This document shows positions 32,809 to 42,188 of a DNA stretch of 64,000 nt, one piece after another (position 1 is the first letter of the stretch; each line of letters opens with the position of its first letter). The translations under genes were made by a program, and so were the position numbers. Below the pieces are notes generated by a model. The model saw nothing but the letters and a program-made list of their open reading frames with translations. It had not been told where the DNA came from and did not search any database. Source of the DNA: Gemmatimonadaceae bacterium (GTDB taxonomy: Bacteria > Gemmatimonadota > Gemmatimonadetes > Gemmatimonadales > Gemmatimonadaceae); contig JADZDM010000025.1 of assembly GCA_020851035.1 (NCBI GenBank), forward strand, positions 62,001 through 126,000, written 5' to 3'.

Positions 32809-34257
32809 ATGAGCACGGCCGCGACCCCGCGGAAGTCACCGCTCGTGGCGCGCCTGGTGACGCGCTTCGGGCCGAGCATCCTGCCGTTCGCCGACGTGGC
32901 GACGACGGAGCTGCCGTTGCCGCGCCTGCTCCGCCTGGGCCTGCTCCAGGTGACGGTGGCGATGGCGACCACGCTGCTGGCCGGCACGCTCAACCGGGTG
33001 ATGATCGTGGAGCTCAAGATGCCGGCGCTGGTGGTCGGCCTGATGCTCGCCATCCCGCTGCTGACGGCCCCGCTCCGCGCGCTCATCGGCTACCGCTCCG
33101 ACATCCACGTGTCGGTGCTGGGGTGGCGGCGCGTGCCGTACATCTGGCTCGGCACGATCCTGCAGTTCGGCGGACTGGCCATCATGCCGGTGGCGCTCTA
33201 CATCCTGGCCGGCGACACGCACGGCGACCCGCGGGTGGGCGTCGTCGCGAGCTTCCTGTCGTTCCTCTGCACGGGGCTCGGCTCGCACATGGTGCAGACC
33301 GCCGGCCTCGCCCTCGCCACCGACATCACGCCGGAGAAGGACCAGCCGCGCGTGGTGGCGCTGCTCTACGTCATGCTGCTGGTCGGCATGGTGCTCTCGA
33401 GCCTGGCCTACGGCGCGGCGCTGCGGAACTTCAACAAGGTCGTGCTGATCCAGGTGATCCAGGGCGCGGCGGAACTCACCATGTTCCTGAACATCTTCGC
33501 CGTCTGGAAGCAGGAGGTCCGTGGCTCGGCCCCGACGAAGGCACCGGAGGTGGCGCGGCCGCCGTTCCTGGTGGCGTGGCGCGCCTTCGTGGCCGAGAAC
33601 CCGCAGCTGATCCGCCTGCTGCTGGCGGTGGGCGTGGGCACCTTCGCGTTCACGCTGCAGGACGTGCTGCTCGAGCCGTTCGGCGGACAGGTGCTGCGGC
33701 TCGGCGTGGCCGCCACCACCTCACTCACGGGGATCATGGCGTTCGGCGCGATCGTCAGCTTCGCCCTGGCGCAGAAGCGCGCCTCGCAGGGCGCAGACCC
33801 CATCCGCCTCTGTGCCCTCGGCGCGGTGGTGGGTGTGGTGGGGTTCGCACTGGTGATCCTCTCGGCACCGATGCTCTCGCCACCGCTGCTGATGGCCGGG
33901 GCGCTCTGCATCGGCTTCGGGAACGGGTTGTTCAGCGTCGGCACGCTGCTGCGCGTGATGGCGCTGCCCCACCACGGCGAGCATGGGCTGGCGCTGGGGG
34001 CCTGGGGTGCGGTGCAGGCCACCTGTGCCGGAGTGGCGATGGCGGTGGCCGGGTTCATCCGCGACTGGGTGAGTGCCGGCCATGTCGCCCCGCGGCTGCC
34101 GATGGTCGAACCGATGCCGGGACCGGGCTACGTCGCGACGTACGCCCTCGCCGTCGTCGGGCTGTTCGTGTTGCTGGTCGTCCTTGGTCCCCTGGCCGCA
34201 AAGCGCCGCGCGGATGTCCGTGAGATGCCGTTCGGCATCGCGGAATTCCCGGCCTGA
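32809..34257 (+). CDS. lhaA: Light-harvesting 1 assembly protein LhaA (PucC family)
   Basis: A 482-residue, roughly twelve-helix PUCC-family protein. [34 protein letters not shown] is the family core and [18 protein letters not shown] the following loop. In purple bacteria lhaA precedes puhA and supports LH1 assembly; the same order here supports this role rather than a transport function. It starts 4 bases after acsF. The gap of 61 bp to puhA contains an AAGGAG site. Confidence 0.92.
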
Positions 34258-34318
34258 CCCTGATTCCGGTTCTCCACTCTCTGCAGTTGCTGGTGTCCCT
34301 CACCTCGAAGGAGCAGGC

Positions 34319-34528
34319 ATGTTCAGGAACTTCACGCCGTACATGGATGTCACGCAGTGGGTGCTGTATGCCTTCTGGTTCGCCTTCTTCGGGCTCATCC
34401 TGTACCTCCGCCGCGAAGACAAGCGCGAGGGCTATCCCCTCGTCTCCGACCAGCCGGACCGCCTGCACCAGGGATATCCGCCCTATCCGGGCCCGAAGGA
34501 GTTCATCCCCACCCACCCGGAGCACTAA
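34319..34528 (+). CDS. puhA: Reaction-centre H subunit, membrane-helix polypeptide
   Basis: Sixty-nine residues corresponding to the N-terminal part of PuhA: a short periplasmic tail, one transmembrane helix (about 11-31, [20 protein letters not shown]), and the first cytoplasmic segment [14 protein letters not shown]. It ends at TAA (34526-34528). The rest of the H subunit begins three bases later in the same reading frame. A normal PuhA is a single chain of about 250-260 residues; together the two parts make 260. An AAGGAG site precedes the ATG. I recall that the Gemmatimonas phototrophica reaction centre also has an H subunit made of two chains, so this is probably a lineage trait. Confidence 0.88.
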
Positions 34529-34531
34529 GCC

Positions 34532-35107
34532 ATGTCAGAACTCATTGTCCCGAAGAACGCGCGGCCGGTGGATTCGAGCTTCGGCGCCCCGCTGGAGCCG
34601 ATCGGCAACCCGCTCTCGGCCGGCATCGGTCCCGGTGCGTGGGCCGAGCGCGCCGACCGCCCCGACCTGACCCTCAAGGGGGCGCCGCGCATCGTGCCGA
34701 TGCGCGTGGCCACCGACTTCTACGTGGCGCACGAGGATCCTGATCCGCGCGGCCTCGAGGTGCGCGGGATGGATGGCGTCGCCGCCGGCACCGTGGTGGA
34801 CCTCTGGGTCGACCGCAGCGAGCCGTGCCTGCGCTACATCGAGATGGAGCTCAGCGGTGGCGGCCGTCGCCTGCTGCCGGTGCCGTTCCTGCGCGTGCCG
34901 CGGCCGGACACGTGGCTGCCGCTCATGACCAAGGAGCCGTCGGCGACGCACGTGCAGATCAACGTGCTGAAGGGGGCGGACTTCGCCGGCATCCCGGTGA
35001 CGAAGCACCCGGACCTCGTCACGCTGCTGGAAGAGGACAAGATCTCCGCGTACTTCGGTGCCGGGTCGCTGTGGAACTCCGATGTGCGCTTCGGGCCGCT
35101 GGTGTGA
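34532..35107 (+). CDS. puhA: Reaction-centre H subunit, cytoplasmic polypeptide
   Basis: The 191-residue soluble part of PuhA, covering the extended segment and PRC-barrel domain that caps the cytoplasmic face of L and M and shapes the proton path to QB. RIVPMRVATDFYVAHEDPDP, RYIEMELSGGGRRLLPVPFL and KISAYFGAGSLWNSDVRF match the cytoplasmic H domain. It has its own GGAG site (34519-34522) 9 bases before the ATG. It is in the same frame as the membrane-helix part, separated only by TAA-GCC. How it stays attached without the covalent link must rely on contacts with L, M and the helix chain. Confidence 0.9.
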   Translation: MSELIVPKNARPVDSSFGAPLEPIGNPLSAGIGPGAWAERADRPDLTLKGAPRIVPMRVATDFYVAHEDPDPRGLEVRGMDGVAAGTVVDLWVDRSEPCLRYIEMELSGGGRRLLPVPFLRVPRPDTWLPLMTKEPSATHVQINVLKGADFAGIPVTKHPDLVTLLEEDKISAYFGAGSLWNSDVRFGPLV

Positions 35108-35787
35108 TGGCGGAGAGCGTCGAGCATGTCGGGCCGGACGGGGAGGTGCGACGCCTCCCCGCCGGTGAACGTGTCCTCTGGCAGGGGGCGCCGGACCGGC
35201 GCTCGCTGGCCCGCTTCCTCCTGCGCGAGCGGTGGCTGCTGGCCTTCGTCGCGTTCTCGTTCGCCCTCGGGGCGGCCGAGGCGCTGCAGCATGCCGAGGG
35301 GGCGGGGGCGCGGCTGGTGGGCGTGGCGACGCTCAGCGCCGTCATGGCCGCGATTGCCATCGTCGCGGTGCGCATCTTCGCGTGGCTGTTGCAGCGCACG
35401 TCGAAGTACGTGATCACCGACCGCCGGCTGTACTTCAACATCGGGATCGTGCTGCGCGCGGACGCGAACGTGCCGTACACCAGCATCGAGGGGGTGGACC
35501 TGCTGCGCCACAAGGACGGCTCGGCGGACCTGATGGTGACGCTCGGCGAGTCGCAGGAGATCCCCTGGTTGTTGCTGTTCCCGCACATGTCGTGGCGGGG
35601 CGCGAAGCGGGGACGCCCGACCTTCCGCGGCCTGCGCGACGCCGATGCCGCCGCCACTGCGGTCGTGGGTGCGCTGCGCGCCTGCACCGCCGGCGGCGCG
35701 GATGCCGGCGCGACCGGAGCCACGGCGAATGCCGCACCGGTCGCTGCGCGGACCCACCTCACGGCAGCCACCCCGTCCCCCGCGTGA
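35107..35787 (+). CDS. puhB: Photosynthetic complex assembly protein PuhB
   Basis: A 226-residue membrane protein with two or three helices and a bPH-2-like domain; it helps assemble the reaction centre in Rhodobacter. GERVLWQGAPDRRSLARFLL, RTSKYVITDRRLYFNIGIVL and the IPWLLLFPHMSWRG region fit PuhB. The ATG overlaps the puhA stop by one base. The last 50 residues are Ala/Thr-rich and less conserved. No puhC follows, which would normally be next. Confidence 0.9.
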   Translation: MAESVEHVGPDGEVRRLPAGERVLWQGAPDRRSLARFLLRERWLLAFVAFSFALGAAEALQHAEGAGARLVGVATLSAVMAAIAIVAVRIFAWLLQRTSKYVITDRRLYFNIGIVLRADANVPYTSIEGVDLLRHKDGSADLMVTLGESQEIPWLLLFPHMSWRGAKRGRPTFRGLRDADAAATAVVGALRACTAGGADAGATGATANAAPVAARTHLTAATPSPA

Positions 35788-37991: not shown

Positions 37992-39164
37992 CTACTTGTT
38001 CGGTGTCGCGGTGGGCACCGGGGCCGCAGCGGGCATCGCAGCGGCGGGTGTGGTTCCCATCCCGACCGGAACGGCTGCCGGAGTCGCCATCGTCGGCGCA
38101 GCCGTCGCGAGCTTGGCACCGACCGGGGTCGGCACGGGCGTCGTGAGCGGTGCGCCGTCGTAGAGCGCCTTCCCGTTCGCATCGAGCGGGCCGAGTGTGT
38201 TGTCCCAGCCAGGGGCACCCCAGAGGGCAGGGTAGTCCTTGACCATCTTCGCGCCGTACAGCGGCTTGTAGATGCCGTTGTGGCACGTGATGCACTGGGC
38301 CTTGGGCGCATCACCATGCTCGCCCAGGCGACTGCGCGGGTACACCGGCTGCAGCGGGTTCAGGTAGTTCATGTTCATGTCGCGGAGCATGGCGGCTCCG
38401 TAGTAGGCGACCACGCGCTTCGGCGTGGACTCCTCCCAGGACGTCCAGGCCCGCGAGTTGTGGCAGTACGTGCAGTTGACGCCGAGTGCGTTCGACTGGC
38501 CGACCATCAGGGCGTACGTGTTGTACGTCTGGCGGATGGCGGTCCGGTTGCCGTTGCTCGGCTCGATCATGTGGCTCTGCACGCGGATGTCATCGCGATC
38601 CAGGTAGTGCCGGAGGATCTGGTTCTCGTTGCTGTAGAACCAGAGCCCGTTCGGGATGGGCTGGCCGCGGTGGCAGGTGTAGCAGGTGACGCCGGTGCCG
38701 GCGACGTGCTGGGTGTAGTCGCTGTTGATGCGGCGCGTCATGCGGAGCATCATGCGGGCGACCAGCTTCGCGTAGATCGGCTGCCCCTTGTTGGAGTCGG
38801 CCGCGAAGTTCGCCGTGTTGTGGCAGTAGGCGCAGTTGCCTGCGTTGCCGGCCACCCACTGGCTCATCGCCGTCATCGTGCGCCCGAACTCCGCGGCGCC
38901 GACATCGGTGAGCACCTGCACGTTCTTGTACTGGCCGGACGCCCCGCCCGGTGGTGCCGGCGGGAGCGGCTTCGGGGCCTGGTTGTACGCGGCCGTCTTC
39001 GCGATGTCGTTCGGGTCGTAGTTCGTCTCCATCGCGACGCCGCGGAAGCCATGCTGCGCGATCTTCTTCGGCCCGGGCTTCCACATGTCGGGATAGCCCT
39101 TGCACCCGCCCAGCAGCACGACCGACAGCAGGGCGCCAAGACGCACGGAGTGACGAGTGATCAT
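37992..39164 (-). CDS. pufC: Reaction-centre tetrahaem cytochrome subunit PufC
   Basis: A 390-residue periplasmic lipoprotein that re-reduces the special pair. The signal LSVVLLGGC places the acylated cysteine at 21. Four haem-binding CxxCH motifs are at 111-115 (CAYCH), 161-165 (CYTCH), 231-235 (CTYCH) and 291-295 (CITCH), with the expected spacing and several Met-containing helices ([28 protein letters not shown]). The C-terminal 50 residues (about 339-390) are a low-complexity Ala/Pro/Thr tail not part of the haem fold. The start overlaps the pufM stop (ATGA). Confidence 0.96.
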
Positions 39165-40681
39165 GGCGTGGTCCCCGCTGGCAGCACGACCTTGCCCTCC
39201 GACGAGATCTCGACACGGCGGTTCAGGCGGCGTCCTTCCGGCGTGGCGTTCGTTGCCGTGGGACGGGTCTGCCCGAATCCGCGCGCCTTGATGCGGTCGG
39301 CGGCGATCGCGTACTTGGTGGTGAGCATGTCGCGCACGCGCTCGGCGCGACCCTGGGACAGCGTCAGGTTGGCGGTCGGGTCACCGACGTTGTCGGTGTG
39401 GCCCTGCACCTCGACCTTCAGCGTCGGGTGCTGCGTGAGCAGCGCGGCGAGGTTGGCGAGCTCGGCGTCCGACTCCCCGCGCAGGCCATCCTTGCCGGTG
39501 TCGAAGTACACTGCGCTCATGATGAACAGGCCATCCAGGTTGAGCGAGTCACGCATGTCGGCCGTGGAGAGCACCGGCTTGTTGTACGCCTCGACATCGA
39601 CCGCGCCGGTGAGCTGTGCCCCCTGCGGGACGGGCAGCTTCTGCGGCACCAGGCGTCCGGTCGCATCCCGCATCATGCCCGGGAAGGTGTCCGGTGCGAC
39701 GCCCATGTACTGGCCGCGCAGGTACGGCGCCTGTTCCGCCTTCACCGCGTACTGCACCGGGTAGCTCGGGGCGACGCCATGCTTCTGTGCCCAGAGGAAC
39801 CAGTTGTCGACCGCGGTCCCCGTGAGGAGGATGCCGAGGCCACCGGTGAGGGTGGTGAGGGTGGCGAACCAGTAGGCCCAGCGGTGGATGGACTCCGTGG
39901 TGGCGTTGAAGCCCATCGTCCAGCGCCAGAACAGGCCCATGCGCTCACCGGCCGTGCCGCGGTCGGTGACCTGCTCGATCTCGCGTTCCGCCCCGTACCG
40001 GCTGCAGGCGAGCACCGTGGCCGCATGCATGGCGAAGAGCACCGCCGACCCGTAGAGGAAGGCGATCGACAGCATGTGGAACGGGTTGTAGAACAGGTTG
40101 CCGTAGCGGATGGAGAAGGCGGCCGTCCAGTCCAGGTGCGGGAAGATCCCGAAGGGGACCGCCTCGGACCAGCTGCCGACCATCAGGGGCCGGATGAAGC
40201 CGAGCACGAGGTACAAGAAGATCGCCGAGGCGAACGACCAGACGATGTGCGACCCCATGCCGAGGGCCCGCGTGCGCTGGTAGATGCGCACCCACCAGCA
40301 GAGGATGGCCAGGGTGAGGAAGAAGCCGGCCATCAGCCACCAGCCGCCTTCGGCGAGGGGCGGGATGTGCAGGCCGTACTTCGGCGCCGGCGGCTCGAGG
40401 GAGAGCCACGGGAGCTGGCGGATGAACTGGATGACGCTCCAGTTGACGGAGGCCATCATGTTGAGGCCGATGATCTCGATGGCGATGAAGCCGAAGATCA
40501 GCGAGAAGACGCCGAGGGTGCCGAGGTAGATCGGCCCGATCTGCGCATCGCCGAACTTGCCGGCCCAGTAGCTGAGGATCGGCTTGCCGTCGCGGCCCCA
40601 GGTGCCGCCACGAAGCGGGACACCGGGATCGACGGGGGCGTGCACCTGCACGCGGGTCCAGAGGTTCTGGTATTCAATCAT
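39161..40681 (-). CDS. pufM: Reaction-centre M subunit PufM fused to an OmpA-type domain
   Basis: Residues 1 to about 325 form a complete PufM with five membrane helices; pigment and iron ligands are seen in [14 protein letters not shown] (H202), [11 protein letters not shown] (H219), E234 and STHRW-like ESIHRWAYW (H266). Normal PufM ends near this point. Here the chain continues for 180 residues: a linker with [20 protein letters not shown], then an OmpA C-terminal domain (about 385-495) including [40 protein letters not shown] and [10 protein letters not shown]. The Asp (430) and Arg (445) that bind diaminopimelate in OmpA are both present, 15 residues apart as in OmpA. The C-terminus of PufM is periplasmic, so the domain could hold the reaction centre to peptidoglycan. 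The fusion is in one uninterrupted frame. Confidence 0.95.
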
Positions 40682-41633: not shown

Positions 41634-41828
41634 TTACCGACTTGCCGGCATCGGGGTGAGCGCGTCTGCCGTGGACACCTTGGCTGCGTTCCCATCAGGA
41701 TCGAGCCAGTTGTACCGCGTGGTGCTGAGCAGAATGAAGTGAATGACCAGCGCCAGCGCGAACATGAACGCGAAGATGCCGACCATCAGGCGCCGGGGAT
41801 CGAAGCCCTGCCACATTTTGTAAAGCAT
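41634..41828 (-). CDS. pufA: LH1 antenna alpha polypeptide PufA
   Basis: Sixty-four residues with one membrane helix. [20 protein letters not shown] is the typical alpha opening, and H30 in [12 protein letters not shown] is the bacteriochlorophyll ligand; RYNWLDPDG follows on the periplasmic side. GGAG precedes the ATG. The C-terminal 20 residues extend past the usual end. It lies 10 bases after pufB. Confidence 0.95.
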
Positions 41829-41838
41829 GGGTTTCTCC

Positions 41839-42039
41839 TCAGCTCAGGAAGCGAGTGGCGGAATGCGCGACGTCGATCAGCTGCGCCGACGCATAACCGA
41901 GCGGCTTGCCGAACCACGGACGCCACTGCCAGCACAGGTAGTGGAAAATCGCAGCGAAGAAGAAGAAGCCCACAAACGTCAGCATCGCCAACGAGTGAAC
42001 TCCACGTGCTTCTTCATCTGTCATCGGGGGCTTATCCAT
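41839..42039 (-). CDS. pufB: LH1 antenna beta polypeptide PufB
   Basis: Sixty-six residues with one membrane helix. [20 protein letters not shown] is the typical beta N-terminus; H33 in [15 protein letters not shown] is the bacteriochlorophyll ligand. The ATG at 42039 was chosen from the family opening ([12 protein letters not shown]); the frame is open upstream but has no antenna features. A C-terminal extension of about 20 residues follows the RPWF motif. It is the first puf gene; the 149-bp gap to the divergent bchO must hold the puf promoter. I see no TGT-N12-ACA operator there. Confidence 0.94.
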
Positions 42040-42188
42040 TCCAACCTCGGGAAATGGCTTGCTGCACGCTCCTGGCGCAGCGCAGGGCGCGACATTGAAT
42101 CCCGTCGCGCAGGGACGAACGATCCGCCGGCGTGCGCCGGCCCAGACCCGAATCGTTCGTGTTGACCAGACACACCTGGAGGGCATGC

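Follow-up and report, generated by a model that had tools for sequence, protein, structure and literature searches.

Organization of the puhA locus

The window analyzed here, by which we mean the whole 64-kb stretch of DNA, contained a bch-lhaA-puh cluster in which lhaA was the upstream neighbor of puhA1. The gene downstream of puhA2 was puhB, which adjoins puhA in relatives as well. The puf operon was located on the opposite strand, at approximately 38 to 42 kb of the window. The features of the puhA region are listed in Table 1.

Table 1. Genes and translation signals in the puhA region of the window
Feature	Positions	Strand	Details	Basis
lhaA (PucC family)	32809..34257	+		PF03209, E=1.6e-123
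puhA1 ribosome-binding site, AAGGAG	34308..34313	+	GGAG at 34310-34313, 5 nt ahead of the puhA1 ATG	sequence; duplex energy -7.3 kcal/mol
puhA1, Ht chain, 69 aa	34319..34528	+	ATG 34319-34321; stop TAA 34526-34528	PF03967, E=1.2e-20, profile 2-64 of 134
puhA2 ribosome-binding site, GGAG, within the puhA1 3' end	34519..34522	+	9 nt ahead of the puhA2 ATG	sequence; -5.8 kcal/mol
Junction TAA GCC ATG, in frame, +3 nt	34526..34534	+	GCC 34529-34531; puhA2 ATG 34532-34534, same phase as the puhA1 ATG and TAA	sequence; congeners TAG GAC ATG, TAG CCC ATG
puhA2, Hc chain, 191 aa, cytoplasmic PRC-barrel domain	34532..35107	+	stop TGA 35105-35107	PF03967, profile 84-134, E=5e-18; PF05239, E=6.5e-9
puhB, TGATG overlap with puhA2	35107..35787	+		bacterial PH domain PF03703 in frame (longer ORF)

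A single-chain PuhA is one unbroken frame carrying both domains. Here, that frame was interrupted by the puhA1 TAA. The coordinates agreed with the original prediction, which described frames of 69 and 191 residues in the same phase with only TAA GCC between them and a GGAG site belonging to the second frame. The prediction that the two frames represented one split PuhA was also borne out, as both matched PF03967. Shared phase alone is weak evidence, because chance yields it one time in three. The Ht chain contained one transmembrane helix (residues 11-36 in the predicted model) and the beginning of the cytoplasmic segment, and it matched the Ht chains of solved complexes (PDB chains 7o0u_H1, 9h19_H, and 9h22_H). 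The Hc chain matched the corresponding Hc chains (7o0u_H2, 9h19_K, and 9h22_K). It had its own start codon and ribosome-binding site and was thus a separate gene. Judged by sequence, the 69-codon and 191-codon genes encode the membrane-helix and cytoplasmic chains, respectively, of the reaction center H subunit.

The split is fixed in the phylum sample

We surveyed 395 Gemmatimonadota genomes, mostly metagenome-assembled relatives, and 43 of them carried PF03967. The H gene was split in all 43, in keeping with the prediction that the two-polypeptide arrangement is fixed. A second set of loci, a named collection whose Gemmatimonadota overlapped those of the survey, showed the split in 15 of 15 Gemmatimonadota loci versus 0 of 65 other loci. 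All 65 of the latter were fused; nearly all were from Pseudomonadota, and one was from Myxococcota. No relative turned up in a scan of viral contigs, and the plasmid matches, going by annotation alone, were all ordinary proteobacterial puhA.

When the split point was compared across Gemmatimonadota, as the original prediction had proposed, the break was found at a place shared throughout the phylum, and what varied was the junction itself. The 43 junctions comprised 32 TGATG overlaps, 4 ATGA overlaps, 5 in-frame junctions with a 3-nt gap, and 2 longer gaps (+19 and +50 nt). Thus, the two genes overlapped out of frame (TGATG or ATGA) in 36 of the 43 pairs, and the junction distance was -4, -1, or +3 nt in 41. 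The five in-frame junctions were those of the window, its two congeners (listed in Table 1), a genome from another family (G319; TGA GCC ATG), and a genome of genus g30 (G336; TGA TCC ATG). Ht length ranged from about 65 to 116 aa in relatives. The longer Ht chains included those of family f5 (L010, L013, L016, L032, L040, and L043), in which a longer low-complexity tail brought the total to about 90-116 aa; in that family, the end freed by the split has therefore been lengthened.

The interrupted frame by itself could be read as a sequencing error or as a sign of gene decay, a reading that had nothing beyond the interruption in its favor and to which we gave practically no credence. Termination was conserved at the same codon in the two congeners, where the stop was TAG rather than TAA, and because these junctions came from other assemblies, an assembly error was excluded. 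Furthermore, the ribosome-binding site was kept, the split was universal in the phylum sample, and dN/dS values between the three congeneric species (Ht, about 0.07-0.12; Hc, about 0.20-0.26) indicated purifying selection on both chains.

The original prediction also held that read-through of the TAA might still give a fused H alongside the two separate chains. The halves do share a phase with just two codons between them, and this arrangement is common to five genomes. The stops in the five in-frame genomes were TAA, TAG, TAG, TGA, and TGA, so no leaky stop had been kept. In addition, the second gene was in another frame in 38 of the 43 genomes, which means that read-through could not yield a fused form there, and the solved complexes of relatives contain two H chains. 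We therefore abandoned the read-through proposal and regarded partial read-through in the window as highly improbable. Programmed stop-codon read-through was rejected on the same grounds: neither the identity of the stop nor the frame was conserved across relatives.

Comparison with known H subunits

The two-chain H of Gemmatimonadota is already known from solved structures (PDB 7O0U, 9H19, and 9H22), and the sole local peculiarity is the reading frame shared by the two halves. The splitting of puhA into puhA1 and puhA2 in this phylum has been described (PMC12817894, 2025), and the same paper states that it took place before Gemmatimonas and Pseudogemmatithrix diverged; a split H was also shown in a 2023 review (PMC10214105). 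The original prediction had pointed to the two-chain H of Gemmatimonas phototrophica; the split found here is of that kind, and 7O0U chains did match both halves.

Compared to RC-Ht and RC-Hc of G. phototrophica (7O0U) and G. groenlandica (9H19 and 9H22), the window encoded the same two chains, with common ancestry, the same gene neighborhood, and the same break point in the loop that follows a GYP-rich segment. The Hc chain of the window was about 45-50% identical to the Hc chains of these two species. Whereas the pairs of these two species overlap out of frame (TGATG), the pair in the window kept one frame across a 3-nt gap. Two genomes of the survey tied the junction types to solved structures. 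The Hc of G039, a TGATG-type pair, had 100% identity to 7O0U chain H2 across the full 181 aa, and the Hc of G074, an out-of-frame TGATG pair, was identical to 9H22 chain K over 180 aa.

In purple bacteria, PuhA has the same domains in the same order but is one chain encoded by one gene, as in Rhodopila globiformis (7XXF) and Allochromatium vinosum (8WDU). We modeled the chain that read-through would produce, with the TAA rendered as Q purely to permit modeling. This joined chain matched purple single-chain PuhA at a Z of about 24 (up to 24.5 against single-chain H) with an overall rmsd of about 10-12 Å; the large rmsd probably arises because the model positions the helix and the domain differently. 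Against the separate Hc chain of G. phototrophica (7o0v_H2), the Z was 22.6 and the rmsd was 2.3 Å. Junction residues 71-75 were the least confident inner part of the model, with a pLDDT under 50. In view of this low-confidence loop, a break at the junction should leave both domains undisturbed.

The split most likely arose once

To place the split phylogenetically, we used LhaA, PufL plus PufM, and an eight-gene set (BchN, BchB, BchH, BchL, BchM, LhaA, PufL, and PufM). The split genomes formed one clade in each of these trees, with support of 100/95, 100/97, and 100/100 (3799 columns), respectively. A gene set that included H gave the same clade (100/100).

The H-only tree differed, as the genus of the window sat there on a long stem and joined the fused H sequences of proteobacteria (94/93). 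Taken at face value, this tree would mean that the split in this genus was recent, independent, and convergent with that of other Gemmatimonadota, and the Hc identities (51% to purple H versus 44-51% to other Gemmatimonadota Hc) are in line with such a history. H is short, however, and constraining the split rows together improved the fit of the H data by 2.86 log units over the free tree (p-AU 0.576). One split clade is therefore compatible with the H data, and in the larger gene sets the genus fell inside that clade with full support. We rejected an independent split, which we considered very unlikely. Because the LhaA, PufLM, and eight-gene trees each gave a single split clade, the split most likely happened once, before the photosynthesis clusters of Gemmatimonadota diverged.

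PufM and other photosynthesis genes

The PufM encoded in the window (39161-40681, minus strand; 506 aa) had a C-terminal OmpA-family domain of the peptidoglycan-binding type (residues 392-488; PF00691, E=7.8e-20). The same fusion was present in the congeners G393 and G281 and in G336, where it was possibly independent of that in the genus of the window. All 30 Gemmatimonadota PufM proteins examined had a C-terminal extension of 12 to 176 aa past the aligned core, often rich in Pro/Ala/Asp-Ser, whereas the extension was 0-6 aa in 25 of the 26 PufM proteins from purple bacteria or Myxococcota. The tails without the OmpA-family domain were 12-125 aa among those examined, and the longest (G244) had no Pfam match. 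The C-terminus of the M subunit lies on the periplasmic side, so the fusion could tie the reaction center to peptidoglycan, and the OmpA-family domain may anchor it to the cell wall. Our literature search, going by titles and abstracts, returned no report of a PufM-OmpA fusion, which may be more novel than the H split.

The frame downstream of pufM (37992-39164, minus strand) began like a lipoprotein and contained four CxxCH motifs (CAYCH, CYTCH, CTYCH, and CITCH), and it is probably a tetraheme PufC cytochrome. A second light-harvesting alpha/beta-like pair was found away from the puf operon (41634-42186 of the window), on another contig (G000 contig C1:35993-36235); this pair may encode an outer antenna.

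Translation of the Hc chain

The predicted ribosome-binding energy before Hc averaged -8.7 kcal/mol, compared to -3.4 kcal/mol at control sites inside puhA1. Energies of -5 or lower were found before Hc in 42 of 43 genomes versus 27% of the control sites, which, lying inside a single gene, are a rough yardstick. Distances of -8 to +10 nt between genes have been linked with termination-reinitiation and with heteromeric complex subunits (PMC10666635). The distance in the window was +3 nt, and 41 of the 43 genomes were within this range; the two relatives with gaps of +19 and +50 nt were beyond it.

Coupled overlapping gene pairs that use termination-reinitiation (PMC6728339, PMC10666635) resemble the puhA pair in their very short distance and in having the ribosome-binding site inside the upstream gene. 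Their products are subunits of one complex, as are Ht and Hc. They differ in that their distance is -1 or -4 nt rather than +3 nt in frame, and for the puhA pair coupling is proposed.

These comparisons point to the following mechanism. H would be made as two polypeptides, with Ht carrying the membrane helix and Hc carrying the cytoplasmic PRC-barrel domain. Most likely, a ribosome that ends Ht at the TAA would re-initiate, or a new one would initiate, at the ATG 3 nt downstream, with the GGAG inside the end of Ht serving the Hc start. A coupled start would hold Ht:Hc near 1:1. In the source organism, Ht and Hc would then associate on the L/M core and replace the single H chain of purple bacteria.

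The presence of two genes, their homology to H, the universality of the split in the phylum sample, common ancestry, and the conservation of termination and the ribosome-binding site were directly supported. We are confident in the joint reading of a two-chain H that arose by a single old split and is most likely expressed by coupled termination-reinitiation, with coupling, stoichiometry, and assembly being the parts that we infer.

Phase of the ancestral junction

The original prediction attributed the split to a single nonsense change plus a gained start. As a local event this did not stand, since the split is phylum-wide and goes back to one ancestor, but such a change is possible in that old ancestor. 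The split clade divided into two halves in the eight-gene tree, and the first branch of each was in frame (G319 in one and the genus of the window in the other). With the fused outgroup scored as phase 0 and the position of g30 taken from the tree that included H, an in-frame ancestor required 4 phase changes and an overlapping ancestor required 5. An in-frame nonsense origin was thus one step more parsimonious, a weak preference. Genus g30 was nested among TGATG genomes (97/96, with the gene set that included H), which means that the +3 in-frame state also arises secondarily. Given this secondary origin and the one-step difference, we did not take the in-frame state as conclusively establishing a nonsense origin. 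It is possible, if less than probable, that the in-frame stop-NNN-ATG junctions of the genus of the window and of g34 are the original state that followed the nonsense change and that TGATG and ATGA are later refinements.

The two-chain H appears as an old single event that has been kept across at least three families, well beyond a few cultured species. If the in-frame state is indeed original, the path from one chain to two would be readable in living genomes. The in-frame junction also offers a natural test of the passage from one chain to two, that is, of whether the fused form is functional and whether the overlap was selected for coupling.
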